IMG/VR virus record: IMGVR_UViG_3300022871_001550 | Span: 1-64,000 of that record | Origin: a virus | Reading direction: 5' to 3' (one strand) | DNA: 64,000 nucleotides | Shown here: positions 27,710 to 57,546 of the stretch, piece by piece | Layout: the number at the start of each line of letters is the position of its first letter | How positions within the stretch are numbered: the first letter of the stretch is position 1 | Notes under the pieces: model-generated | Databases searched by the model: none | What the model was told of the DNA's origin: nothing | Seen by the model: only the letters and a program-made list of their open reading frames with translations | Program-made: the position numbers and the translations under genes

Positions 27710-28486
27710 TTAAGAGATAGTAAATAGTTTTTCAAGAAACTTTTCATTATTCACTTCTTTTAATGATTTTACTGAAAAATCAGCCTCATCCCACTCATTA
27801 TAAGGTCTAATTATTTTAATCGAAGTTTTTCCATCAGGCTTGTTTTGAAATGCTTCTGGAGCCACATCAATTAGAACATCGCAATAGTTCCATTTATCGA
27901 CATCATTTTCTACAATTTGAAAATTTCTTGCTCTACTTCCCATTTTATGGAGGAAGTGAAAATTAGATGTTATTGCATTTGATTTAAGGTCTGACAATAA
28001 AACAGTTTCAAATAAATTATTTTTTAAACCATAAGCCTGTATTCTATTGAAATAACTCATGGCATTTGTAAATTCTTCAGCATCTCCAAAGATTTTAAAT
28101 GGATATTTTTCATACATAAATTTATGCATTCCTTCTTCTGGGCTTAAAATTTTATCTTCCATCTCCAATTCCATATCCCATTCTCTAAATTCAGAGTTCT
28201 TAGGGGTTTTAAATGCATTTTTATTTTCAAACTCAGGAGCCTCATCAAATTGATAATGATTTAAAAGGTCATGCGTATCAACTGGTAAAGAAATACGGTC
28301 ATCTGTTTCTTTAGCAATTTTCGCTGCCTTTTCTTCAAGCTCTTGCTCAGTAGGTTCTTTATATTGAAATTCTTCATCCATATCAACTAAAGTTGGGTTG
28401 TCTATGAATACTTTTCTGTATTGTTTATCAAAAGAGTCGTGGTAATTTCTAATTACTCCGTCTATGCTAATTCCTAATTTTTTCAT
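27710..28486 (-). CDS. HAD-like protein, probable inactive phosphatase
   Basis: The product has 258 residues. The opening KKLGISIDGVIRNYHDSF matches HAD motif I (hhhDxDGV), but the first, nucleophilic Asp is replaced by Ser. Later motifs are present in order: VLLSDLKS (motif II Ser), a Lys-containing helix, and CDVLIDVAPEAF (motif IV Asp). The arrangement resembles the 5'-nucleotidase (NT5C) branch. Loss of the nucleophile suggests a binding or regulatory rather than phosphatase role. It lies between a terminator (28504-28538) and the GT4 gene. Confidence 0.5.
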   Translation of the reverse strand: MKKLGISIDGVIRNYHDSFDKQYRKVFIDNPTLVDMDEEFQYKEPTEQELEEKAAKIAKETDDRISLPVDTHDLLNHYQFDEAPEFENKNAFKTPKNSEFREWDMELEMEDKILSPEEGMHKFMYEKYPFKIFGDAEEFTNAMSYFNRIQAYGLKNNLFETVLLSDLKSNAITSNFHFLHKMGSRARNFQIVENDVDKWNYCDVLIDVAPEAFQNKPDGKTSIKIIRPYNEWDEADFSVKSLKEVNNEKFLEKLFTIS

Positions 28487-28571: not shown

Positions 28572-30128
28572 TTATTTTAAAGTAGTATATTCGGCTTTTT
28601 TCCCAATAAAGTTAATGTGTTGAGCCTTTCCATCTTTATGGATAATAACATGCGTATGTAACCATGTGCTTGGCCCTAAGTTATATCCTAAACGTAATTT
28701 TGTTGAAGTTCCCACAGACAATGCACCATCTTTTCTTCCAGGAGTATGATAATGCGCTAAAACTATTTTTGTATTAAGGTTTTTAAATTGATTTAATGAA
28801 CCCCTGCTTCCATTTTGTCCATAATCTCCATGCACGCCTAATTCCCATCCTTTAACCTTGTAGCCATCCATTCTACCTAAAGCATTGATGTTGTTGAAAT
28901 TTTGATTAATTACATATGGTACAATTCCCTTTGGGGCTTCATTTGCTAATAATACTCGTGCATATTCCATATATTCAAGAGAATTTTTAATATTCTTTTT
29001 CCAATCACTATTAATTATCCACCTATCTACAAAATCATCATGATTACTTCTAACTACAACAAGATTGTATTTTTCCATACCCTTTAACCAATGAACCATA
29101 TTGTCCATTTCTTTTTTAAGAGAATTGGTTCCTTGTTGTTCTTTGTGAAATTGTAAAACAGGGTCTTTAAGATGATGATGGCTAATCGAGTAACCGTCAA
29201 ATAAATCATGCAAAATAGTATGCTTAGGTTTTAAAATATCAAGAAGCTCTTTTGTTGAATTCATTACGGCTTCATCTTCATCTCCTAAGTGAATGTCTCC
29301 TAGAACTATAGCTTCAACGCCATCAATTCTTGATACATTCTTGTTTTTAGTATGGAAAAACAAATCTATAAAGTCCCCATTGTCTTTTGCTGTAACTTGA
29401 CGCATGAAGAATTTTTCTTCATTTTTAATTTCTACTACTACAAAACCAAGAGTATGGTGAAATTCACCCTTTTTCCCTGCTTTAGAGTCCGTATAATTTC
29501 TTTTGGTAACAGCACCTGTCGTTAGCATAATCTTTGGCTTATGACCCACTAAAGCGCCTAAAACCTCCATATGAACTTTAGGTGAACCAAAGATACATGA
29601 ATTAATTCCGCTCATTCCGCCCATACCAGTTAAAGGATTAACTGCAGTAGGTTGAACTTTTACGTCTGACATTACAGAAACATATTTATGAATATTATGT
29701 CTACCTGCATCTAAAAAAGGTAAAACTCTATTATCCCAGACATCAAAGTTTTTATCTGTAAAAACAGATGTTGGATTCTTATAACGTCCTGCAATAACAT
29801 GAATATCTGCATTGATAAATTCTGCATAAGCCTTCATGTTATCAAAAAATTTCTGATGAATAGGAGTGTCATTTTGAGCCCATGTGATTAAAAATCTCTT
29901 TTTGGTTTTGTCAAAAGTTCTCTTTTTTGCTTCTGCATACTGTTCAGAATTCTCAACATTTTCTTTTTCTTTGACATTAAGTTTAGATAACCATTTTCGC
30001 ACAGTTCTTTCGGACTTATCAAAGTATTTCATTAAAATAGCCATTCTTTCGTCCCATGACAATTCTTTGTTTAAGTGGATTGTTCGAGCATAGTTTACTT
30101 GCTCTTCAGTAAGTTCTTTAAATTTCAT
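28572..30128 (-). CDS. Metallophosphoesterase with N-terminal helix-turn-helix
   Basis: The product has 518 residues. Residues 8-52 (SWDERMAILMKYFDKSERTV) look like a helix-turn-helix. Residues 275-480 carry the calcineurin-like metal motifs in order: GDIHLGD (277), HDLFDG (307), SNHDDF (361), GVHGDYG and AHYHTPGR (about 464). This architecture recalls the T5 A1 family, associated with host DNA breakdown and DNA transfer, but I name that only as a possibility. A host-like -7 element (TATCTTTA at 30142-30149) lies upstream and a terminator downstream, so it is a single-gene unit, perhaps early. Confidence 0.65.
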   Translation of the reverse strand: MKFKELTEEQVNYARTIHLNKELSWDERMAILMKYFDKSERTVRKWLSKLNVKEKENVENSEQYAEAKKRTFDKTKKRFLITWAQNDTPIHQKFFDNMKAYAEFINADIHVIAGRYKNPTSVFTDKNFDVWDNRVLPFLDAGRHNIHKYVSVMSDVKVQPTAVNPLTGMGGMSGINSCIFGSPKVHMEVLGALVGHKPKIMLTTGAVTKRNYTDSKAGKKGEFHHTLGFVVVEIKNEEKFFMRQVTAKDNGDFIDLFFHTKNKNVSRIDGVEAIVLGDIHLGDEDEAVMNSTKELLDILKPKHTILHDLFDGYSISHHHLKDPVLQFHKEQQGTNSLKKEMDNMVHWLKGMEKYNLVVVRSNHDDFVDRWIINSDWKKNIKNSLEYMEYARVLLANEAPKGIVPYVINQNFNNINALGRMDGYKVKGWELGVHGDYGQNGSRGSLNQFKNLNTKIVLAHYHTPGRKDGALSVGTSTKLRLGYNLGPSTWLHTHVIIHKDGKAQHINFIGKKAEYTTLK

Positions 30129-30175: not shown

Positions 30176-32419
30176 TTACTCTATTTTTTTTGTTTTTTCC
30201 ATTTGAGAATAATCACTTTCTATAATTTCTTTTATTAAATCTTCGAACTTAACTTTTGTTTCCCAATTTAAAACCTCTTTTGCCTTAGTTGCATCTCCAA
30301 GTAATAATTCAACCTCTGTCGGCCTAAAATAAGCAGGGTCAATTTCAATTAACAATTGGCCTGTATTTTTATCATGACCCTTTTCATCAATACCACTCCC
30401 GCTCCATTCAATTTCATATCCTAAATATTTAGCAGAAATCTCTACACACTCTCTAACCGAATGTAGTTCCCCAGTAGCCAAAACAAAATCATCTGGAGTA
30501 TCCTGCTGTAACATTCTCCACATTCCCTCTACATATTCTTTTGCATGTCCCCAATCTCTTTGAGAATCTAAATTTCCAAGCTTTAAAGTTTTATTCGCTC
30601 CAAATTTAATTTTAACTAATTCAGATGTAATTTTTCTAGTAACAAATGTAAGTCCTCTACGTGGAGAATTATGAACATGTCCTTGTCCCACCCCAGCATG
30701 AAACGTTCCACTTTCTGTCTCTAAATCAAAAAACCAACCATTATATTCTTTCATATCAATTATTTTTTTTATTGAATTATTTTCAATATTAAAATGATGT
30801 TTGTTATTTGGTATATAACCGTTTTGAATCTTTCTTATAAAACCTCTACTAATTTCTGTTTCTCTTTGTATTTTTCTTTGTGAATATTCTTTATTAATTA
30901 ATTCTTCAACTTTATTCCATTTCTCAATGCTATTTCTATGATTTTGTCCTTTATTTGAATTGCTTAAAATATTAATTGAATAATATAATCTCTCTTTATT
31001 AAATTTAAAAATTTTCTCAACATTTATATTATATTTTTGTTTGGTCGTATTTTGTAAAAGAAAAATTAAACCAGCAGCCAAAGTGTGAGAATTAGTTTTA
31101 AAATTTTTAAATTTATATTTACAAGGGTTTTTTTTCAACCCATCTGCATTATTATACCCATTTAAAAAAGATAATTGTATATTTTTATTGGAATTCAATA
31201 TTAACTTAGGAACTCTCTTTTTTTTATATTCATCATATATATCATTTAAATATTTTTTACCCCATTCTTTATTGCCATTTAAATTATATTGCCATATTTT
31301 TTCATTTTTATTAAATCCAGACCTAGTTTGATATTCATGAATTGTTCCACCTAAATTTTCCCAAATTTCAGCATACTTTTTTATATATTTAGTTTCTTTT
31401 CCTGTAATTCTTAATTTATTTTCTTTTTTATTATAGTCACCATCTCCAACTATAAACCCTATCAATTCTGCTTCTTTTTCTGAAATTTTATTTTTTAGAT
31501 TTTTATTTATTGGATATGCTATAAGACTTACTTTATCACCTAGTTTAATATTACCAAATGTTTTTTCTTCTCCATTTTCCATTATGCATTTATGTGAAGA
31601 TGTTGCTAAATATGCAGCATTTTTACTGACTAAAAATTTAGGATTTTTATTATTATCTGTGTCATGTGGGTAACCAGAAGCATACTTAACTTTTGTCCAT
31701 TTATTTTTGTCCCAAACTTCTAAGTTTTCAGTTACTATTGTTTCTTGATATTCTTTTTTATTTATATCTATAGATAATTTATTCTTATTTGTATGATATT
31801 TAACTATTTCTGAAATAGGTTTAATATCAATTTCATCACCAATCTTAAATATCATGGGTGTAAAATCAACTACAGTTTCGTGGTTAAATAAAATTCCATT
31901 GCAAGCAAACAAATCATATGCTTCTCGATAATTTTTTACAATCCAGTATCCATATATTTTAGCTACTCCATAAGGAGACCTTGGATAAAACGGAGTCGTT
32001 TCTGTTTGAGGTGTTTCTATAACCTTGCCAAAAAGCTCAGAAGTTGATGCCTGATAGAGTTTAGCTGTCGGACAATGCGTTCTCATCGCTTCTAGAATGT
32101 TTAATGTTCCAATAGCATCTACTTGAGCAGTATAATAAGGAATATCAAAAGAAACTCTCACATGCGACTGTGCCGCAAGATTATAAATCTCATCTGGTTG
32201 AACTTCTGAAATTAACCGTGTTATAACTATGGGGTCTGTAATATCTCCAAAATGCAATTTGAGTTTTCCAAAAATATGGTCAATCTTACCCGTATTAAAA
32301 GAACTACTCCTTCTAACTACCCCGTGTACTTCATAACCTTTTTCTAGCAAAAGCTCAGCAAGGTAACTCCCATCCTGACCAGTTATTCCAGTTAGAAATG
32401 CTATTTTTCTTTTCTTCAT
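30176..32419 (-). CDS. gmd: GDP-mannose 4,6-dehydratase interrupted by an intein
   Basis: The product has 747 residues. Residues 1-181 and 585-747 join to a 344-residue Gmd, the normal length. The N-part holds the [11 protein letters not shown] Rossmann loop (10-20), S/T-S-E at 125-128 and Y150-x3-K154, the dehydratase catalytic set. The C-part begins [13 protein letters not shown]. The break falls inside the conserved [15 protein letters not shown] motif. The spliced enzyme makes GDP-4-keto-6-deoxymannose from GDP-mannose. The gene begins two bases before the stop of the upstream ColD-type gene and feeds that enzyme. The last residues (MEKTKKIE) are a short basic tail. Confidence 0.92.
30668..31876 (-). 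mobile_element. Intein with LAGLIDADG homing endonuclease, in gmd
   Basis: This is a 403-residue insertion, host residues 182-584. Block A is [10 protein letters not shown], with Thr as first residue instead of Cys or Ser. Block B is ATSSHKC (His276). LAGLIDADG motifs are [11 protein letters not shown] (319-329) and [12 protein letters not shown] (416-427), both with the catalytic acidic residue. A helix-turn-helix-like segment ([20 protein letters not shown]) lies at 512-531. Block F is [16 protein letters not shown]. The end is HVHN, with penultimate His and terminal Asn, followed by Ser585 as the +1 nucleophile. All splicing and homing blocks appear intact. The only anomaly is Thr1. Confidence 0.9.
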
Positions 32420-32420
32420 G

Positions 32421-33611
32421 TTAAATATTTTTAATAATTATATTACATATTTGTTTTATATCATTATAACTAAGTTCGGGGTTATTTGGAACATAAAGCC
32501 CATTTGAATCTATTAGAGAACAATATTTTTTTTCATTGCGCCCATATTCTTTTATGTAATAAGGCTGAGTGCCAAGTGACCCAGCAATTAATGGTCGAGA
32601 TTCTATGCCATATTTTTTTAATTCTCTAACAAGGTTTTTCTTCTCTTCTTCACATTTTCCCAACATAGTTTTTTTATTTCCAAGAATTATTGGAATACAA
32701 AAACTTGAAATAATTTCGCCTTCGGGTATATTTGGCCAAAATCTTAAATGTTCCTTTAATAATGATTCGAAATGACAAAAATTTTGAAATCTTTTTTCTA
32801 CGATGAAATCTAATTTTTTTAATTGTTCTATGCCTAAAAATGCTTGCAAGTCCGTTGACCGCATGTTAAATCCAGGTACATAAAATGTATAAAGAGCAGA
32901 AAAATTATCGACCCCCCATTGGTCTCTAAGTTTTTTCTGAGCTTCTTCGTCTAAGTCTCTATCCCAGCCATGACTTCTAATCATTTTTAAAATATTATAC
33001 AGCTCATCATCATCTGTACAAATCATTCCACCTTCAATTGTTGATATGTGATGTCCGAAATAAAGCGAGAAAGTTGACATTTCGCCAAATGTTCCTAATT
33101 TTTGCCCTTTATGCTCCGAACCTAATGATTCACAAGTGTCTTCCAATAAGTAAACTCCATACTTTTGACATAGTTCTTTAATTTTTGTCATATTAGGGGG
33201 TAAACCTAAAACTGAGACAAGCATAAGCGCTGCGGGAGCTTCAATTTTAAAAACTTCCTCTAAATCAGTAAGATTTACTGATAAATTTTTAATATCGGTA
33301 TCTACTAGAACTGGGTTAAAACCAAGCTGCATTACAGGAGCAAGGTCGGTTGCCCATGACAACGATGGTACTACTATAGTATTGTTTCGAAGTTTTTTTG
33401 TGAGCTTTAACGCATAGAGCATCATTAGATTTGCTGAAGAGCCAGAGTTAACAAATACAGAGTGCTTTACTCCGAGCCATTTTGACCACTTTTCTTCAAA
33501 TTCAATTGTTTTATCTCCTTTTGTTAAACGGGGATATGTCTTAAGCCACTCTATTAATTTATCTATATCTTGGTTAGATATCGTATCATTTACAAGTTTG
33601 ATTTCTCTCAT
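32421..33611 (-). CDS. colD: GDP-4-keto-6-deoxymannose 3-dehydratase (ColD-type, DegT fold)
   Basis: The product has 396 residues in the PLP-dependent DegT/DnrJ/EryC1 family. The usual Schiff-base Lys is replaced by His: [16 protein letters not shown], with His187-His188. This matches ColD, whose catalytic base is His188, and separates it from perosamine-type aminotransferases. Other ColD-like stretches are [27 protein letters not shown] and [10 protein letters not shown]. ColD removes the 3-hydroxyl of GDP-4-keto-6-deoxymannose, the product of the next gene (gmd). A host-type promoter lies at 33627-33658. RfbH-type dehydratases also carry His, but the gmd neighbour favours the GDP-mannose branch. 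Confidence 0.75.
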
Positions 33612-33626
33612 GAAGTTTAATTTCCT

Positions 33627-33658
33627 AAAATATAAGAAATTTTCACTCTGAAATCAAA
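33627..33658 (-). promoter_or_regulatory. Host-type (Bacteroidota) promoter
   Basis: The minus strand reads TTTG-N20-TATATTTT, one mismatch from the TTTG / TAnnTTTG consensus. It lies before the colD-gmd unit, in the only sizeable gap of the cassette. Confidence 0.5.
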
Positions 33659-33662
33659 TATT

Positions 33663-34460
33663 TTACACGATTTTCCAATCTTCGCAATAAAGGTCTTTTA
33701 TATTATAGTTAGCATAAGCTTTTCCAAACCATATAGAGGGCGCTATAATTTTCTTTTTTGGATTTTTATTCAAAAAAGCACTCCACCAAGAAAAAGTTGA
33801 ATTGCATATAATGTTATGATTACATAAGCTCATTAAACACAAGTCTTCATAGTCCATAAAATCTTCAACAAAAGTCAAATTATCCATATCTGGGAAATTA
33901 TTTTTACACCATTCTATATCATCAGAGAAAACAAGAAATTTTTTGTCCATTCCTATTTTTTTCATAGCTTTCATATAGTAATTTAAACTTTGTGCTGGAT
34001 GGTGGTCTGGAGATTTTAAATAATCTCCTCTTCTTACATGAATAGAGCATATATTGTCCGCAAGCATATCAATTTTATATTTTGTTTTAACAACTTTGCT
34101 TACATTATTAACAATTTGCAAGGGAAATTCGAATAATTTTTTTATGTCACCCAAATAGTCTTTAAAGTAATTTTCAGCCTGAAAATAACCAATTAGCATG
34201 ACATTTCCATTTATGTTTGGAATTTCTGTAAAGTTAAATCCAGGCTCAGTGAATGACTTAAATCCTTTGGTATTATAATTGTTTAAAAAATCAACATTGT
34301 GTAATATATTTTCTTTGTAACTATCTAAATGTTTATGTACTACATTAAAATCATTAGTTGTTAATTTTAATTCTTTATTGGTTTTTTTTGCATAAGCATA
34401 TGCGGCAGCTATTTGGAAAAGCACATTTCCAATTCCACCCATAAGTTTAATTGTTACCAT
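33663..34460 (-). CDS. GT11-family fucosyl/colitosyltransferase
   Basis: The product has 265 residues. It has the three GT11 signatures: GGIGNVLFQIAAAYAYA (8-24), HVRRGDY (141-147) and NSTFSWWSAFL (220-230). GT11 enzymes transfer L-fucose, or in the case of E. coli O55 WbgN-type enzymes probably colitose, in alpha-1,2 linkage from the GDP-sugar. It overlaps the end of the synthase gene upstream by seven bases. The adjacent pathway genes make GDP-colitose or GDP-fucose the likely donor. The acceptor is unknown. Confidence 0.85.
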   Translation of the reverse strand: MVTIKLMGGIGNVLFQIAAAYAYAKKTNKELKLTTNDFNVVHKHLDSYKENILHNVDFLNNYNTKGFKSFTEPGFNFTEIPNINGNVMLIGYFQAENYFKDYLGDIKKLFEFPLQIVNNVSKVVKTKYKIDMLADNICSIHVRRGDYLKSPDHHPAQSLNYYMKAMKKIGMDKKFLVFSDDIEWCKNNFPDMDNLTFVEDFMDYEDLCLMSLCNHNIICNSTFSWWSAFLNKNPKKKIIAPSIWFGKAYANYNIKDLYCEDWKIV

Positions 34461-35371
34461 GATTGCTTTTCTTTTAAAAATTCATAAGTTTTTTTTATCC
34501 CATCATATAATTCGGTAAATTTAAAATCAGGCATTATTTTTTTCATTAACCCATTAGAAACATCTTTTCTAAATTGACCATCTGGTTTGGTGGTATCAAA
34601 TTTAATTTTTAAATGTTCTGCATCACATGCTTTTAGTGAAATCTTTGCAATTTCTTCTATAGAATAATTTTCTGTAGGAGCAACATTAAAGCTATCATAA
34701 CAATTGTTATCAATACAAGATTTAATAACCTTAGCAAAATCTCTAGCGTAAACAAATTGTCTAAGAGGAGTTCCTGTACCAAATAACATTATATGGTCAC
34801 TGCCATTTTGTTTCGCTATTATTATTTTTTTAATTAAAGCTGCAATAAAATGACTATTTTCCCCATACTTATCATACTCTCCATAAAGATTAGGAGGAGT
34901 AAGATAGTTGTAATTAGTTGCATACTGTTTGTTATATGCATCTATTTGTACTGCCATACATCTTTTTGCATACCCATAAGAAAAATTAGTAAGAGTTGGT
35001 GGTCCTAAATGTAAATCACTCTCTTCCATTGGGTATTTTTTCACTTCGTCTGGATAAATACATGTGCTTAAGATACCAATAAATCTGTCAACATTATAAA
35101 ATTTAGCCCATTTAATTAAAAGAGTATTCATTAAAATGTTATCAGTAAAATATTCTGCTGGCTTATTAATGTTATCTATGATTCCTCCAACTTTAGCAGC
35201 TAAGTGTATAACAATATGTGGTTTGTATACCTTAAACATCGTAATAACTTCTTCTTCTTCTGTAAAATCATATTCCTTAGTGGATAAATAAACCGCATTT
35301 GGCATAATGTCCCTAAGTGCTCTACCGACCATTCCTGAGCCACCTGTAACTACTATTTTCTTTTCTTCCAT
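34454..35371 (-). CDS. GDP-L-fucose synthase-like / GDP-L-colitose synthase (ColC) candidate
   Basis: The product has 305 residues, a short-chain dehydrogenase of the Fcl/WcaG family. It shows the NADP loop GGSGMVGRAL (10-19), AAKVGGI (58-64) and STCIYP (102-107). The YxxxK pair is Y132/K136. His174 (ENSHFIAALI) matches the epimerase acid. Retention of Cys104 and His174 implies 3,5- or 5-epimerisation plus 4-reduction, giving an L-sugar. With a ColD-type dehydratase in the same cassette, the likely product is GDP-L-colitose; without it, GDP-L-fucose. It is separated from the next gene upstream by 12 bases. Confidence 0.8.
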   Translation of the reverse strand: MEEKKIVVTGGSGMVGRALRDIMPNAVYLSTKEYDFTEEEEVITMFKVYKPHIVIHLAAKVGGIIDNINKPAEYFTDNILMNTLLIKWAKFYNVDRFIGILSTCIYPDEVKKYPMEESDLHLGPPTLTNFSYGYAKRCMAVQIDAYNKQYATNYNYLTPPNLYGEYDKYGENSHFIAALIKKIIIAKQNGSDHIMLFGTGTPLRQFVYARDFAKVIKSCIDNNCYDSFNVAPTENYSIEEIAKISLKACDAEHLKIKFDTTKPDGQFRKDVSNGLMKKIMPDFKFTELYDGIKKTYEFLKEKQSW

Positions 35372-37107: not shown

Positions 37108-37914
37108 TTATTTTAATATTTTTTTTATGGTTTTTTTCAAACGAGCTTTAATATTAACAAACTCTTTACTTAATTCATAGTTTTTTTCAACATATTTTAA
37201 TTTTTCCAAATATGTGTTTTCATCTAAAGAGTTACAAACACTAATAATTTCATCAACAGAATTTACTAAAAACATTCCATCTGTATCAAAATAGTTTTCA
37301 ATGTTTGGACATCCATAGTAAATAGGCACTGTTTTGGTATATAAACAATCAATTAACTTTTCAGTAAACCAATTTTTTCTTTTTACATTTTCAATAACAA
37401 TATGAAATTGACTGTTAAACAAAGGTTCTTTTTTATTACCCAACAAAGGATTGTTGTTAAAATTTTGAAGGTTTCCATGCATATTTCCGCTAATAAAAAA
37501 CCTTTTAGGAGTTTTTATTTTATTTTCCTTGTACCAGAGCTTTTGTCTTAAGTGATGTCCAGGCGCCATTAACTTTCCTCCTACTAATGTCGAAACTTCA
37601 AATTTTTTCTTTGTAAAAGAATATGGCTCTTTAATCCATGTTGTGCCAAATTCAAACAATATAGCATTTTTACACTTATCTAATATTTCCTGATTATGAG
37701 TTAAGATAAAATCAAACTCTCGCTGTCTACTAATTGCCATATTAGTAAATGCAGGAGCTATTTCTGGTGGCTCTAATATAAAAAGAATTTTAATAACATT
37801 TTTCCCAAGAACTTTATTTACATTATGAAAGTCCACAAAAAGCTCTATTTTTTTTTCATGAAACATCTCAAAATCTAAATCCCAAGTACAATTTATATTT
37901 AATTTATTCATCAT
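37108..37914 (-). CDS. GT10-family (alpha-1,3-fucosyltransferase-like) glycosyltransferase
   Basis: The product has 268 residues. The C-terminal half holds FHIVIENVKRKNWFTEKLID and TVPIYYGCPNIENYF, the hallmark of GT10 enzymes ('F-x-x-x-x-E-N...Y-x-T-E-K...A-x-x-V-P-I-Y-x-G-x-P'). A 'EPPEIAP' segment fits the N-domain. The donor of this family is GDP-L-fucose. Here GDP-L-colitose is equally possible given the pathway genes. The start overlaps the preceding gene by 11 bases. A second fucosyl-type transferase besides GT11 supports the sugar assignment. Confidence 0.75.
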   Translation of the reverse strand: MMNKLNINCTWDLDFEMFHEKKIELFVDFHNVNKVLGKNVIKILFILEPPEIAPAFTNMAISRQREFDFILTHNQEILDKCKNAILFEFGTTWIKEPYSFTKKKFEVSTLVGGKLMAPGHHLRQKLWYKENKIKTPKRFFISGNMHGNLQNFNNNPLLGNKKEPLFNSQFHIVIENVKRKNWFTEKLIDCLYTKTVPIYYGCPNIENYFDTDGMFLVNSVDEIISVCNSLDENTYLEKLKYVEKNYELSKEFVNIKARLKKTIKKILK

Positions 37915-38789: not shown

Positions 38790-39398
38790 TTATTTTTTTA
38801 AAAAATCATAATTAACTTCTTTGTTTAATATATCGCTATAACCATCTTTTTGCCACGCTAAATGAGGACGAAAAACATAACAATTAAAGCTCCCCTGCAA
38901 TAAAGAATACATAACATCCACCTCATGCTTTAATTTAGGAAACATCTTTAAAACTACCTCGTAAACAGGCTTTCTAATAGCATAAGCATGAGTGGTATAA
39001 GTTTTTTGAATTTTTGCAACATTTTCATCAACCATTTCTAGTGGTATTCCATTATGATTACCTCCAAAATAAAGCATATCCCAATCTTCTGGAACTTGTT
39101 TAATAAGTTTTTTAAAATCATCTTGTAAGTTTTCAGAAAAAACAACATCATCTTCTAAAACTAATATCTGATTTAAATTATTTTCACTTGCTTTTTTTAT
39201 AATATTATAATGACTTAATACGCACCCTACGTGCCCTGACACAATTTTAGTTGGGATATTATCTGGATTACCCTCTATTGCCGAAAATCGCTCTACTTCT
39301 AAATTATGTTTCTTAAACTGAACTTGTGCTTGCTCCCATCTATCTTTTCTCTTATCAAGATTTACGCAATAAATTTTTTCAAAATATTCATTCATCAT
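38790..39398 (-). CDS. Glycosyltransferase family 25
   Basis: The product has 202 residues and is textbook GT25. It shows YCVNLDKRKDRWEQA (9-23), GHVGCVLSHYNIIKKA (55-70), LVLEDDVVF (79-87) and a late WDMLYFGG. GT25 enzymes are mostly LPS beta-galactosyl or glucosyltransferases. Its ATG overlaps the upstream gene's TGA in an ATGA coupling, one of the few clear uses of TGA as a stop here. Confidence 0.88.
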   Translation of the reverse strand: MMNEYFEKIYCVNLDKRKDRWEQAQVQFKKHNLEVERFSAIEGNPDNIPTKIVSGHVGCVLSHYNIIKKASENNLNQILVLEDDVVFSENLQDDFKKLIKQVPEDWDMLYFGGNHNGIPLEMVDENVAKIQKTYTTHAYAIRKPVYEVVLKMFPKLKHEVDVMYSLLQGSFNCYVFRPHLAWQKDGYSDILNKEVNYDFLKK

Positions 39399-40279
39399 AT
39401 TAAAAATTTCTTAATTTGTTTACTTTTTTCTTTTATTTCTCTTGTTTTTTCTTCTTTTGTAAGCTTTTTAAAATCCTCGTAAATTTTTTGCATTTGCTTA
39501 ATATACGGATTGCTCATATATGTTGGAGAGTGATACATATGAAAAATATCAATAGCAGGATTTTCAGCCGTATGCATTTTACTAATAGTATCTATTTTTT
39601 CCCAAAAATAAGCATCCTCGGGGGAGTTAGCCAAAAACAAATCATCATCATATCCGCCAACATCGAAAAACAATTCTCTTTCAACTAAAATAGAACCGCC
39701 AGGCGCTCCCAACATAACTTTTCCTCCCAGTCTCGGCAGGTCTATGTTTGAATTGTCTTTCAAATTTAATACATCAAATGCTGTAAATTTTTCATTGACA
39801 ATTTCTTTTGTTAAATTTTCATTACAATATAAAACCCTGCGCTGTTGAAAACATTGAATTGCTTTACAGTTTTGATTTGTTATGTTTTTGGTTAATTTTA
39901 CAAAAAAATCAGATTGAACTAAGCAATCAATGTCATGAAATAGAATATATTTAGAGATATTTGAATATAAAGCTCCTAAATTATAACACAAACATTTGTT
40001 AAACAATTCATCAGGAGCCGATTTAATCCAAATGTAATTTATTTTATTTTTTTTGCAAAATTTAGCATGGTCTGGAATTTCAGAGTGCTCTATAACTGTA
40101 TAACTTATTGCTAAACTCGAATTTTCTTTAGCTTTTAAGAAACTGTTATACATCGGTTGGGCAAATTCTATCCTATTACGCACTGGAATAAGAAAGTTAA
40201 TATCAAAAAGTTTCTCTGGATTTTGAATTAAAACTAAATTTTCTTCTTTTATTTTTTTGTAATTATTCATAACTTTCAA
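39395..40279 (-). CDS. Glycosyltransferase, GT2/GT7 galactosyltransferase-type
   Basis: The product has 294 residues. 'INFLIPVRNRIEFAQPMYNS' is the nucleotide-binding start. 'YILFHDIDCLVQSDFF' holds the D-x-D. 'GAPGGSILVERELFFDVGGY' followed by 'DDDLFLANSPEDAYFWEKI' matches the GT7 C-terminal motif (GGxxxxxxxxFxxVGGYD...SxEDxxF). The stop is TGA. The N-terminus overlaps the preceding GT2 gene by 17 bases. Confidence 0.75.
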   Translation of the reverse strand: MKVMNNYKKIKEENLVLIQNPEKLFDINFLIPVRNRIEFAQPMYNSFLKAKENSSLAISYTVIEHSEIPDHAKFCKKNKINYIWIKSAPDELFNKCLCYNLGALYSNISKYILFHDIDCLVQSDFFVKLTKNITNQNCKAIQCFQQRRVLYCNENLTKEIVNEKFTAFDVLNLKDNSNIDLPRLGGKVMLGAPGGSILVERELFFDVGGYDDDLFLANSPEDAYFWEKIDTISKMHTAENPAIDIFHMYHSPTYMSNPYIKQMQKIYEDFKKLTKEEKTREIKEKSKQIKKFLI

Positions 40280-41006
40280 TTTGATTAAAAGGTTTCTTTT
40301 TCAATATCTCTTTATGAATATCCCATTGTAATTTTTGATTTACTTTATCATCACTTATTGGATTGTCACGATTGTAAGTATATAATACCTTATCTATATA
40401 TTTTACTTTATCATATCCCGACAACTCTAAAAGAGGAAGCATAATGGCAACATCATACGTCATTTTATAAAATTCACCATTTTTTCCCTTTAAACAACTA
40501 AACCCTTTGTCTTGGTCTTCTATTGCCATATAGACTCCTGTGATAAACGTTCTTAAATGAGAGATTCTAAAAGGGGCTTTTCTCAAATGGTCAAATTCTT
40601 CTTTGGGATATGCCGAAGCAAACCCTCTTCTCCCATCTGTCCAAGATGCTTGTCCATAAGTTACCCAACAATCATTTTCATTGTAGAAATCATTTAAATA
40701 CTTTAAAACATTCTTACTTGGAAGCCAATCGTCACCGTCCACTAATACTACAATATCTTCTGGATTACAGTGATACATAATCGCATGATGAATGTTTGGA
40801 AGAGCTGTTACGTTGACTTCATTTTTAATGCATATAACCTTTTTATTATCATGAGGCAATAAATCCCATGACTTATCAGTTGACGCATCATCAACAAAAA
40901 TTACTTTATAGTTCTCATATTTTTGAGACATCACTGAACCCATGCATCTTTCTATAAACTTCTCAGCATTATAGAATGGTACTATTATTTTAAAGCTTCT
41001 TTCCAT
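40263..41006 (-). CDS. Glycosyltransferase family 2
   Basis: The product has 247 residues. The classic GT2 pattern is clear: FKIIVPFYNAEKFIERCMGS, QKYENYKVIFVDDASTDKSW, and VVLVDGDDWLP with the D-G-D-D metal site. The donor and acceptor cannot be told. Its ATG overlaps the stop of the upstream gene by one base, so it is translated from the cassette message. Confidence 0.85.
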   Translation of the reverse strand: MERSFKIIVPFYNAEKFIERCMGSVMSQKYENYKVIFVDDASTDKSWDLLPHDNKKVICIKNEVNVTALPNIHHAIMYHCNPEDIVVLVDGDDWLPSKNVLKYLNDFYNENDCWVTYGQASWTDGRRGFASAYPKEEFDHLRKAPFRISHLRTFITGVYMAIEDQDKGFSCLKGKNGEFYKMTYDVAIMLPLLELSGYDKVKYIDKVLYTYNRDNPISDDKVNQKLQWDIHKEILKKKPFNQIESYE

Positions 41007-46095: not shown

Positions 46096-47394
46096 ATGAA
46101 TAAAAAAATTCACATTTTAATGGTGCCCTCTGACTTACAGGGAGTAGGTCATTTTCGTAACATCTGGGCAGCACAATCAATTCAAAAGAACTTTTCTGAT
46201 GAATTTGAAGTAGATATTAACCACCAAGTTAAATTTAATGATTATGATGCCTTATCAAAATATGACATCATACACTTCCACAGACAGTTTGGTCCTTTTG
46301 AAGAATTTCCTAAAGTTGCCGAAGAATTAAAAAAACGAGGTGTTATTACTATAATGGACATTGATGACTATTGGCAACCGCCAACCACCCATCCTCTATA
46401 TGAAATAGCTAAAGCAGAAAAATATCCTGAAAAGATTCTAAATAATATAAAACATGCGGAGTATATAACTACTACCACCACTACATTTAAAAAATATATT
46501 GAAGCATATAATAAAAATGTTTATGTAATCCCAAATGCATTAGATATGAATCATAAAATGTGGTCTTCTCCTTTACAAAAAAACCTTACCGATAAATGTC
46601 GAATTTCTTGGATAGGGGGGTCTTCACATCTTCACGATTTAAACCTTTTAGACCAATCAATGCAAAAATTAAATCATAGCCCTGATTTAAAAGATAAATT
46701 TCAAATTATAATGTGTGGATTTGATACTCGTGGTACAGTAACACAGCTGGGCGCTAATAATGAAAAAACAACCAGAAAAATTAAACCACATGAGACTATA
46801 TGGTGTAATTTTGAAAAAATATTCACAAGCAATTATGAGCTTTTAAAAGATGATGAAGAGTATGTAAAATGGTTAAAGAAAATTAAAAAAGAACAATATC
46901 CAGAAGAATACACCAAAAATTTTGTTAGAAGATGGACCCTTCCTTTAACTCAATATGGAAAACACTATGATTATTGTGATGTTTGTTTAGCTCCTTTAAA
47001 GAGAACAGAAACCTATAAAGAACTACCAGGTGGAGAAATAGTTGCAATTATTGACCCACGAAAAGGAACTATTAAAACTCGCCCACACTATTTTAATGAA
47101 GTTAAATCTGAATTAAAATTAATTGAATCTGGTATGAAGAAAAAAGTCTTAATAGCTGAAAATTTTGGAATTTGTAAAGAATTGATAAAAAATGGAGAAA
47201 CTGGAATTTTAGTTGAAAACTCGAAAAAAGACTGGTATAAAGCTATGCGCAAAGTTATTAACGACCCAGGATATAGAAATGCATTAGCTGAAAATCTACA
47301 CAACTTTGTAAAAGATAAATATGAAATTACCAGTGTTACCAAAGATAGATTAAATATTTACAAAGAAATTTTAAAACAAAAGAAAATATGTTAG
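46096..47394 (+). CDS. Glycosyltransferase, GT-B type (GT4-like)
   Basis: The product has 432 residues. An N-domain (KIHILMVPSDLQGVGHFRNI; YDIIHFHRQFGPFE; DIDDYWQPP) precedes a C-domain with 'ISWIGGSSHLHDL', 'IIMCGFDTRGTV' and 'EGNFGICKELIKNGETGIL'-like strands (here AENFGICKELIKNGETGILV). It is a GT4-type layout, with an insertion around residues 215-300. It lies outside the main sugar cassette and overlaps the ADP-ribosylglycohydrolase gene by seven bases, so the two are co-translated. Confidence 0.7.
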   Translation: MNKKIHILMVPSDLQGVGHFRNIWAAQSIQKNFSDEFEVDINHQVKFNDYDALSKYDIIHFHRQFGPFEEFPKVAEELKKRGVITIMDIDDYWQPPTTHPLYEIAKAEKYPEKILNNIKHAEYITTTTTTFKKYIEAYNKNVYVIPNALDMNHKMWSSPLQKNLTDKCRISWIGGSSHLHDLNLLDQSMQKLNHSPDLKDKFQIIMCGFDTRGTVTQLGANNEKTTRKIKPHETIWCNFEKIFTSNYELLKDDEEYVKWLKKIKKEQYPEEYTKNFVRRWTLPLTQYGKHYDYCDVCLAPLKRTETYKELPGGEIVAIIDPRKGTIKTRPHYFNEVKSELKLIESGMKKKVLIAENFGICKELIKNGETGILVENSKKDWYKAMRKVINDPGYRNALAENLHNFVKDKYEITSVTKDRLNIYKEILKQKKIC

Positions 47395-48185
47395 GAGCAA
47401 TTACAGGTGATATAATTGGGTCTGTTTATGAAGCATATAATTGTAAACATGAAGAGTTTGCTCTTTTTACTGAAAAAACTCGCTTTACAGATGATACAGT
47501 TTTGACCATTGCAATCGCAGATGCTTTTATGAATAAGAAAAATTATGCAACTACACTTAAAGAATATACCAGGAGATTTCCTCTTGCAGGATTTGGAGGT
47601 AGCTTTATAAGTTGGGTAGACAGTGATAGCACGTCTGGATATGGAAGTTATGGAAATGGTTCTGCTATGAGAGTTAGTTCATTAGGATGGCTGTGTTGTA
47701 CCTTGGAAGATGTTTTAATAGAAGCTAAAGCAAGCGCACAAGTAACTCATGACCATCCAGATGCAATTGCTGGAGCACAAGCAATTGCTGGAGCGGTATT
47801 TTTGGCTAAAAACAACTATAGCAAAGAACAAATAAAAGCTTTTATTGAAGAAAATTTTCAATATGACTTAAATAGAACGCTTGAAGAAATAAGGCCAGAT
47901 TATAATTTTGATGTTAGTTGTGCTGGTTCCGTACCAGAATCTATTATTGCTTTTTTAGAATCTAGTAATTTTGTGGATTGTTTAAGAAAAGCAATTTCAA
48001 TAGGTGGAGACAGCGATACAATCGCAGCTATGGCCTGTAGTATAGCAGAGGCTTACTATAGAGGAGTTCCAGAAGAATTAAGCATTAAAATATTTGCAAT
48101 TTTACAAAAAACTGCAAATTTTAAAATGGGAGGAGAAAGTCGAAACTTCACAGATATAATAATGCAGTTTTATAAAGTGATATAA
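47388..48185 (+). CDS. ADP-ribosylglycohydrolase (DraG/ARH family)
   Basis: The product has 265 residues, a full-length ARH-fold enzyme. It shows GAITGDIIGSVYE (3-15), the metal site TDDT (34-37), GNGSAMR (89-95), THDHP (120-124) and the second metal site GGDSDTIAAMA (206-216). All acidic metal ligands are present, so it should be active. It removes ADP-ribose from proteins, nucleic acids or small metabolites. The start ATG lies inside the end of the glycosyltransferase gene. In a phage it could reverse ADP-ribosylation by host or phage enzymes, or by a DarT-like toxin; that is inference. Confidence 0.9.
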   Translation: MLGAITGDIIGSVYEAYNCKHEEFALFTEKTRFTDDTVLTIAIADAFMNKKNYATTLKEYTRRFPLAGFGGSFISWVDSDSTSGYGSYGNGSAMRVSSLGWLCCTLEDVLIEAKASAQVTHDHPDAIAGAQAIAGAVFLAKNNYSKEQIKAFIEENFQYDLNRTLEEIRPDYNFDVSCAGSVPESIIAFLESSNFVDCLRKAISIGGDSDTIAAMACSIAEAYYRGVPEELSIKIFAILQKTANFKMGGESRNFTDIIMQFYKVI

Positions 48186-56049: not shown

Positions 56050-57546
56050 ATGAAAAATACAAAATTTGTTGCAATATGTAAAAAAACTCAAAAAGTTTTT
56101 AATGATTATAAAAATTTATCTGGAACTTTAACTTCACATTTAAAATTAATTGAGCCCAGTTTAATACACCCATCATCTTTTATAAAAAGACAATATAAAA
56201 AAATACATAACCAATATTGGCATGAACAATTTTTTAATGTTGTCGAAATAGATGATGATACTGAATATAAAAAATGTCCTTATTGTAATTGGGAAACTAA
56301 AGATATAAAAAATAAATCTGGACAATTTACACTTCACTTAAAAAATAAGCATAATATCAGCATTATTCAATATCTAATTGAATTCCCTGAAGAAAAAGAG
56401 CTTTTTAAAACTTTCATTAAAAAACATGAAGATAAGGAAAAAACATTTAGTAATGAAGAAAATTTTATTATTTGTGCCATATGCAATAAAAAAATGAAAT
56501 CTTTAACTAATTCTCATCTAAAAAAACATAATATTACATTAAGTGATTATAAGCTTAAATATCCAAATAGAGAATACCATTCAAAAAGTTTTATTTCTAA
56601 AACTTCTAAAAATCTTATAGAAGCAGCAAAAAAAATAAAAAACTCATATGTTTCAAAACCAGAAAAATCATTAAAAGAATTTTTATTAACTTTAGGATTA
56701 AATATAGATAAAAATAATAGAAAACTTTTAAATGGTGTAGAAATTGATGTAATCAATCATGAAAACAAAATTGGAATAGAATTTAATGGAAATTTATATC
56801 ATTCAGAAAATTATGGTGGAAAGCAAAGAAAATTTCATCTAAATAAAACCGAACTTATGAATCAAAAAAATTATCGTTTGATACATATTTTTGAAGATGA
56901 ATGGGAAAATAAAAATAAAATAGTCAAAAATAAATTAAAGCATATTTTTAACAAAAATAATTCTACAATAATTCATGCAAGAAAGTGTATTTTAAAAGAA
57001 ATAGATTCAACTTTAAAAAATAATTTTTTAAATAATAATCATATTCAAGGTGAAGATAAGTCAAACGTTCATGTTGGAGCTTTTTTTAATGATGAGCTGA
57101 TTTCTGTAATGACTTTTGATAATAATAGACAAATGAATAAAAAACAAAATAAAAAAGACGAATACGAATTAAAAAGATTTTGTACCTCATCTAAGTATAT
57201 AATTTCAGGAATTGCAAATAGACTTTTATCTTTCTTTATTAAAAAATACAATCCTAAAAAAATTATAAGTTTTGCAGATAGAAGATGGACATTAAATAAA
57301 AACAATAATCTCTATGTAAACTTAGGATTTAAATTAACTAAAATTTTACCACCTGATTATACATATTATAATTCAAAAATTAGTAGATATAAAAGACTCC
57401 ATAAATTTTCTTTTGGAAAATCATCTTTAAAGAAAAAATATCCAGAAATTTATAATGAAAATAAAACAGAATGGGAAATGATGCAAGAATTAGGATATGA
57501 TAGGATTTGGGATTGTGGAAAATTCAAGTATGAATTAATTTTTTAA
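56050..57546 (+). CDS. Free-standing homing endonuclease (Vsr/EDxHD-like nuclease with zinc fingers)
   Basis: The product has 498 residues. Two C2H2 zinc-finger-like units lie in the N-terminal third: C76/C79/H96/H101 and C142/C145/H156/H160. A nuclease core follows: GVEIDVINHENKIGIEFNGN with LYHSE (E229, D231, E242, H249) and HLNKTELMNQKNYRLIHIFE with DEW. This order fits the EDxHD/PD-(D/E)xK Vsr-like nucleases of phage homing elements. The C-terminal part (YELKRFCTSSKYIISGIANR ... IISFADRRW ... LGFKL) is found with such nucleases. The gene is even more AT-rich than its surroundings and sits between the capsid and neck genes behind a terminator, like an insertion. Confidence 0.8.
   Translation: MKNTKFVAICKKTQKVFNDYKNLSGTLTSHLKLIEPSLIHPSSFIKRQYKKIHNQYWHEQFFNVVEIDDDTEYKKCPYCNWETKDIKNKSGQFTLHLKNKHNISIIQYLIEFPEEKELFKTFIKKHEDKEKTFSNEENFIICAICNKKMKSLTNSHLKKHNITLSDYKLKYPNREYHSKSFISKTSKNLIEAAKKIKNSYVSKPEKSLKEFLLTLGLNIDKNNRKLLNGVEIDVINHENKIGIEFNGNLYHSENYGGKQRKFHLNKTELMNQKNYRLIHIFEDEWENKNKIVKNKLKHIFNKNNSTIIHARKCILKEIDSTLKNNFLNNNHIQGEDKSNVHVGAFFNDELISVMTFDNNRQMNKKQNKKDEYELKRFCTSSKYIISGIANRLLSFFIKKYNPKKIISFADRRWTLNKNNNLYVNLGFKLTKILPPDYTYYNSKISRYKRLHKFSFGKSSLKKKYPEIYNENKTEWEMMQELGYDRIWDCGKFKYELIF

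Follow-up and report, generated by a model that had tools for sequence, protein, structure and literature searches.

Colitose is a rare bacterial surface sugar, equivalent to fucose minus one oxygen and known from few bacterial O-antigens, and its activated form, GDP-L-colitose, is 3-deoxy-GDP-L-fucose. We know of no phage for which colitose synthesis has been demonstrated, and no title or abstract among 5.4 million papers of an open library, outside which most subscription papers lie, was found to describe a phage colitose pathway; literature searches on phage GDP-mannose enzymes with an intein and on phage dideoxy sugars found nothing relevant. The colitose O-antigen genes of E. coli O55 provide four functions (gmd, ColD, ColC and WbgN). 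ColD works with PMP and glutamate and has no iron-sulphur cluster, and transaminase activity is absent from both ColD and E1 under comparable conditions (PMC8987622, a review). WbgN is a colitosyltransferase that also takes GDP-fucose, as such GT11 enzymes accept both donors (PMC11987014). Among T4-like phages, P-SSM2, S-SCSM1, S-SRM01 and S-SKS1 carry Gmd and Fcl, several of them with fucosyltransferase-like genes (PMC9602691).

The stretch of DNA analysed here (the window) comprises positions 1–64,000 of the IMG/VR virus record IMGVR_UViG_3300022871_001550, which is 64,669 bases long. Matches to T4-like phage families cover its head protein, head protease, tail sheath and baseplate proteins, and its capsid is nearest to those of uncultured huge phages, Rhodothermus phage RM378 and Microcystis phage Mel-JY01. 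The glycan genes form a block on the minus strand, with baseplate genes on one side and head genes on the other. Host contamination was rejected as a source, as this is a virus record and head, protease, sheath and baseplate proteins flank the cassette. Within the block, gmd (30176–32419) is followed after one base by a DegT-family gene (32421–33611), and a GT11 gene (33663–34460) overlaps fcl (34454–35371) by 7 bases. Beyond fcl, the gene run includes, three places away, a GT10 gene (37108–37914), then a GT25 gene (38790–39398; PF01755, 73 bits), probably part of the same glycan module, and a GT2-type gene (40263–41006; PF00535, 71 bits). A sequence-only reading had placed Gmd, a DegT-fold enzyme, an Fcl-like enzyme and GT11 together, and all of them, as well as GT10, were found where it put them; gmd does adjoin the others, although the range it quoted (32421–35371) leaves this gene out and its intein went unmentioned. 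On the other side of gmd, two minus-strand neighbours without a Pfam match (28572–30128 and 27710–28486) are also cassette-adjacent in two other loci (L001, L002). Elsewhere in the window, a plus-strand gene (56050–57546) flanked by those for the major head protein and the head-tail adaptor has weak matches to a ROS/MUCR zinc finger and the MTES_1575 nuclease and is possibly a homing endonuclease, and another plus-strand gene (47388–48185) belongs to the ADP-ribosylglycohydrolase family (PF03747, 103 bits). Promoter and terminator scans gave nothing clearly above shuffled sequence. Overall, we put the probability that these genes encode a phage pathway to GDP-L-colitose at roughly three in four.

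Gmd is identified at equivalog level (NCBIfam TIGR01472, 513 bits; cut-off 415), and an in-frame insert of 403 aa (30668–31876, minus strand; aa 182–584) brings its precursor to 747 aa. When joined, the flanking exteins (31877–32419 and 30176–30667, minus strand) share 57% identity with Gmd of E. coli O55. The insert splits a near-invariant motif (FNHE|SPRRG), starts with Thr and ends in HVHN followed by Ser; an in-frame insert in a conserved motif with a terminal His-Asn before Ser, Thr or Cys is what is looked for in an intein. It also matches PI-PkoII in the PDB (2.8e-4), with the alignment reaching the terminal HN, and gives a weak LAGLIDADG endonuclease match (LAGLIDADG_3). Inteins usually have Cys or Ser at position 1, whereas Thr comes first here and in the same-site inteins of two other phage Gmds (L184 and L425), which are 69% and 56% identical to this one. 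The insert was not present in the remaining Gmds examined. An AlphaFold model of the intein was too poor for use (pLDDT 40.6), and the intein is presumed to splice.

The DegT-family protein encoded next to gmd (396 aa; PF01041, 225 bits) has ColD as its best PDB match (3.5e-63, 217 bits), with lower scores for RfbH E1 (151 bits) and perosamine synthase (118 bits); it is only 35% identical to E. coli ColD. Structure prediction, proposed as a check by the sequence-only reading, likewise places it nearest to ColD: an AlphaFold (AF2) model built from 36 natural relatives reached a mean pLDDT of 93.3, and the top five Foldseek hits were all ColD (including 3b8x, 2r0t and 2gms; best 4.2e-35). The same reading was right that a catalytic His replaces Lys as in ColD but wrong in numbering it His188, as ColD His188 corresponds to His187, the first His in GHHIST (predicted catalytic codon at 33051–33053, minus strand). 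The H188N ColD mutant structure 3b8x aligns at this column, and relatives with GHTMST retain that His alone. Among 191 DegT-family proteins the column holds only His (166) or Lys (25), so the His is not there by chance, and it replaces Lys in all examined members of the window DegT clade. The window protein has Trp86, as in ColD, and keeps, as does ColD, one of the four RfbH [2Fe-2S] cysteines, lacking the other three and with them the full set of E1 and SpnQ. RfbH (E1) resembles it in having His for Lys and in its C3 deoxygenation chemistry, but needs a [2Fe-2S] cluster and a reductase; this type was rejected because the cluster cysteines are missing and because RfbG (CDP-glucose dehydratase) occurs in 0/58 dereplicated viral loci with this DegT. 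The catalytic Lys of GDP-perosamine synthase and the DegT aminotransferases is also absent, with His in its place.

A bootstrapped DegT tree, which took in eight further ColD orthologues from Gammaproteobacteria (an earlier version held one long-branch ColD), showed four clean groups, fully supported in their separation: Lys aminotransferases, the RfbH type, ColD, and a phage and cellular His clade that includes the window protein. This clade is sister to the ColD clade (support 99/93) and separated from the Lys aminotransferases at 100/100. Clustering with aminotransferases, the outcome that would have spoken against the sequence-only reading, was thus not found, and the window protein lies on the ColD side; as it belongs to a sister clade outside the ColD clade proper, we call it ColD-like, not ColD. 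To our knowledge the clade has no characterised member. It is widespread, with members in at least 600 viral stretches in our scan. A Prochlorococcus member adjoins a ColC orthologue (50% identity to E. coli ColC), and in a Nanoarchaeota MAG a His-type DegT and Gmd are fused in one 814-aa protein (L069:5992–8448, plus strand). The substrate may vary within the clade, because some cellular relatives adjoin a CDP-glucose-dehydratase-like gene and a Lys-type DegT instead of Gmd; in Pelagibacterales loci L057, L058, L060 and L061, the clade His-DegT has these two neighbours. A Per-like Lys-type DegT directly precedes the His-DegT in loci L112, L116, L126, L148, L167 and L172, several of them near Gmd, and the two together could make a 3-deoxy amino sugar of the 3-deoxyperosamine type.

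The fcl product (305 aa) is of the Fcl/ColC C5-epimerase/4-ketoreductase type, and in the PDB it matches human GDP-L-fucose synthase best (1.1e-57). It retains the Ser102-Tyr132-Lys136 triad and the epimerase pair Cys104/His174, the latter both kept in 79/80 window-type Fcl proteins. Close to the active site, a loop with the sequence NLYGEYDK resembles NLYGKYDK of ColC; fucose synthases have NLYGPxDN, with PHDN in the E. coli and human enzymes and a DN ending in 79/79 phage fucose-type proteins. The bulky residue after His174 is also unlike that of the fucose synthases compared (those of E. coli and human, and 79 fucose-type ones from phages); as a colitose marker it is suggestive only, Val being kept in many His-DegT-linked Fcls. 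On the tree, the window protein groups with phage homologues and human FX (GDP-fucose synthase), outside the E. coli ColC clade. The earlier label "Fcl/ColC-like" is therefore fair as regards residues and the NLYGxYDK loop but does not extend to membership of the ColC clade. Homology of Fcl by itself would not decide between fucose and colitose, and since tree position fails as proof of ColC identity, the argument rests on genomic context.

That context decides the pathway. Around the window-type DegT, 58 dereplicated viral loci had at least four genes on each side, and Gmd or Fcl lay within six genes in 44/58 (both in 32/58). In the reverse search, 37 dereplicated long loci with a window-type Fcl carried a ColD-type His-DegT in 33 and Gmd in 34, the remaining four having an RfbH-type His enzyme. 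For comparison, 12 loci found with the GDP-fucose-type Fcl of P-SSM2, S-SRM01 and S-SKS1 had Gmd in 12/12, GT11 in 9/12 and a His-DegT in 0/12 (Fisher p 2e-8 against the window-type loci), and Lys-type DegT loci had Gmd in only 2/21, all of these associations being partly confounded by phage lineage. A conserved partnership of the DegT with Gmd and a distinct type of Fcl is predicted by the GDP-colitose route and not by the GDP-fucose route; together with the DegT tree and fold, it supports the sequence-only reading's proposal that this is the gene set for GDP-colitose. Seven loci (L191, L193, L209, L212, L226, L240 and L256) combine Gmd and a window-type Fcl with an RfbH-type enzyme bearing four cluster cysteines; those that were read have an RfbB-like dehydratase nearby, and the RfbH-type enzyme may serve a separate pathway.

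The alternative that survives best is that Gmd and Fcl make GDP-L-fucose for GT11 and GT10, while the His-DegT contributes to a separate 3,6-dideoxy sugar with another reductase. We consider this unlikely, even though the Fcl falls with human fucose synthase on the tree and could use the same intermediate to make GDP-fucose, as a window-type Fcl is almost never seen without a His-DegT and the fucose-type phage Fcl almost always is. Cultured P-SSM2, S-SRM01 and S-SKS1 do have Gmd and Fcl with no DegT nearby, but the window protein differs from the fucose-type synthases checked in its NLYGxYDK loop and in having a bulky residue after His174, and no second epimerase-reductase is present in the window gene run. 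That GT11 enzymes take both donors (PMC11987014) suits either product.

For the same reason, the "matching transferases" emphasised by the sequence-only reading are weak evidence alone. The GT11 protein (265 aa; PF01531, 103.7 bits against a cut-off of 23.9) is a candidate colitosyltransferase: on the GT11 tree, it joins E. coli WbgN and the GT11s of His-DegT loci, and those of phage GDP-fucose loci fall separately, a split explained by a single change on the tree. The GT10 protein (268 aa), a possible second transferase, scores 23.3 bits in Pfam, just below the cut-off of 23.9. Its family is backed by its phage relatives, 12/12 of those aligned matching PF00852, and by a profile of the protein with these relatives, which matches solved alpha-1,3-fucosyltransferases (1.2e-15).

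In the GDP-L-colitose route, the intein would splice out and Gmd would convert host GDP-D-mannose to GDP-4-keto-6-deoxymannose, a step for which homology is strong. By analogy with ColD, the DegT enzyme would bind PMP and, with His187 in place of the Schiff-base Lys as acid/base, would then expel the C3 hydroxyl; hydrolysis would give GDP-4-keto-3,6-dideoxymannose, with PMP regenerated by glutamate and no iron-sulphur cluster involved. What points to action on GDP-4-keto-6-deoxymannose with glutamate is the linkage and fusion of this enzyme to Gmd. Fcl would epimerise C5 (Cys104/His174) and reduce C4 (Ser102/Tyr132/Lys136), making GDP-L-colitose the most likely product. GT11, and possibly GT10, would transfer the sugar to an acceptor built by the neighbouring glycosyltransferases. 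A real pathway ending in another 3,6-dideoxyhexose, such as a non-epimerised GDP-sugar of tyvelose configuration, seems improbable: the stereochemistry is read from homology in an uncharacterised DegT clade, but Cys104 and His174 are needless for a plain reductase and are nevertheless kept in 79/80 proteins. It is just as improbable that the DegT protein takes the Gmd product as an aminotransferase or other PLP enzyme to give an amino sugar such as GDP-perosamine, a role suggested by its family and by the "aminotransferase" label in ACG-2014f and PHROGs but rejected by the active site, with His for Lys throughout the clade members examined, by the 100/100 tree split and by the lack of transaminase activity in ColD and E1 (PMC8987622).

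The GDP-mannose is probably host-derived, because in the record, itself a fragment, no GDP-mannose-forming nucleotidyltransferase passes its family cut-off. The genes examined included no recognisable flippase or polymerase, and hydropathy of the glycan proteins showed no clear membrane segment, consistent with glycosylation in the cytoplasm, either of a protein or of a lipid-linked glycan. Either a virion protein or the host surface may serve as the acceptor; the virion is mildly favoured by the location of the cassette, which has baseplate genes on one side and head genes on the other. As to the host, a Shine-Dalgarno-like site precedes only 1/49 window genes of at least 150 aa, against approximately 7% expected for random positions, and the region upstream of the 49 genes is enriched in A, with peaks at −12 to −9, −5 and −3, a pattern described for Bacteroidota (PMC6847099). 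The Bacteroidota promoter pattern was found in the window five times, with five expected. Judged from these upstream sequences, the host is likely a member of the Bacteroidota.

We tentatively extend this reading to a broader proposal, which we hold as possible but somewhat short of even odds: nucleotide-sugar 3-dehydratases would include a third clade, the sister of ColD, present in hundreds of environmental phage sequences, whose members make GDP-L-colitose for phages; this sugar, resembling fucose, would be put on the phages' own particles or on the host surface, and the window Gmd would be active only after its unusual Thr1 intein has spliced. The uses suggested by the sequence-only reading (particle coat, mimicry of host surface sugar, change of the host surface) are possibilities. 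If the broader proposal is true, phage-encoded sugars would include dideoxyhexoses as well as fucose, a function could be assigned to a large uncharacterised enzyme clade, and the "aminotransferase" labels of many phage genes would need correction.

Compared with the E. coli O55 genes, the window has the same four functions, and all four of its proteins match their counterparts by BLASTP (the DegT protein also by fold). The phage set is compact, and genes for a flippase, a polymerase or GDP-mannose synthesis were not seen in it; its DegT belongs to a sister clade, its Fcl comes from another branch and its gmd carries an intein. P-SSM2, S-SCSM1, S-SRM01 and S-SKS1 share Gmd and Fcl with the window, but have no adjoining 3-dehydratase and differ in Fcl type and in their GT11s. 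In the cultured cyanophages S-CAM7 and ACG-2014f, genes for Gmd, Fcl, His-DegT and GT11 stand in a row and the His motif is kept; their DegT proteins, of another subclade, are only 32–36% identical to that of the window, their Fcl lies on the bacterial fucose-synthase branch and their gmd is without an intein. The labels of these genes (CDP-4-keto-6-deoxy-D-glucose-3-dehydrase, aminotransferase or hypothetical) do not refer to a colitose route. Because these two cultured phages have a gene set similar to that of the window, the proposal can be tested soon.
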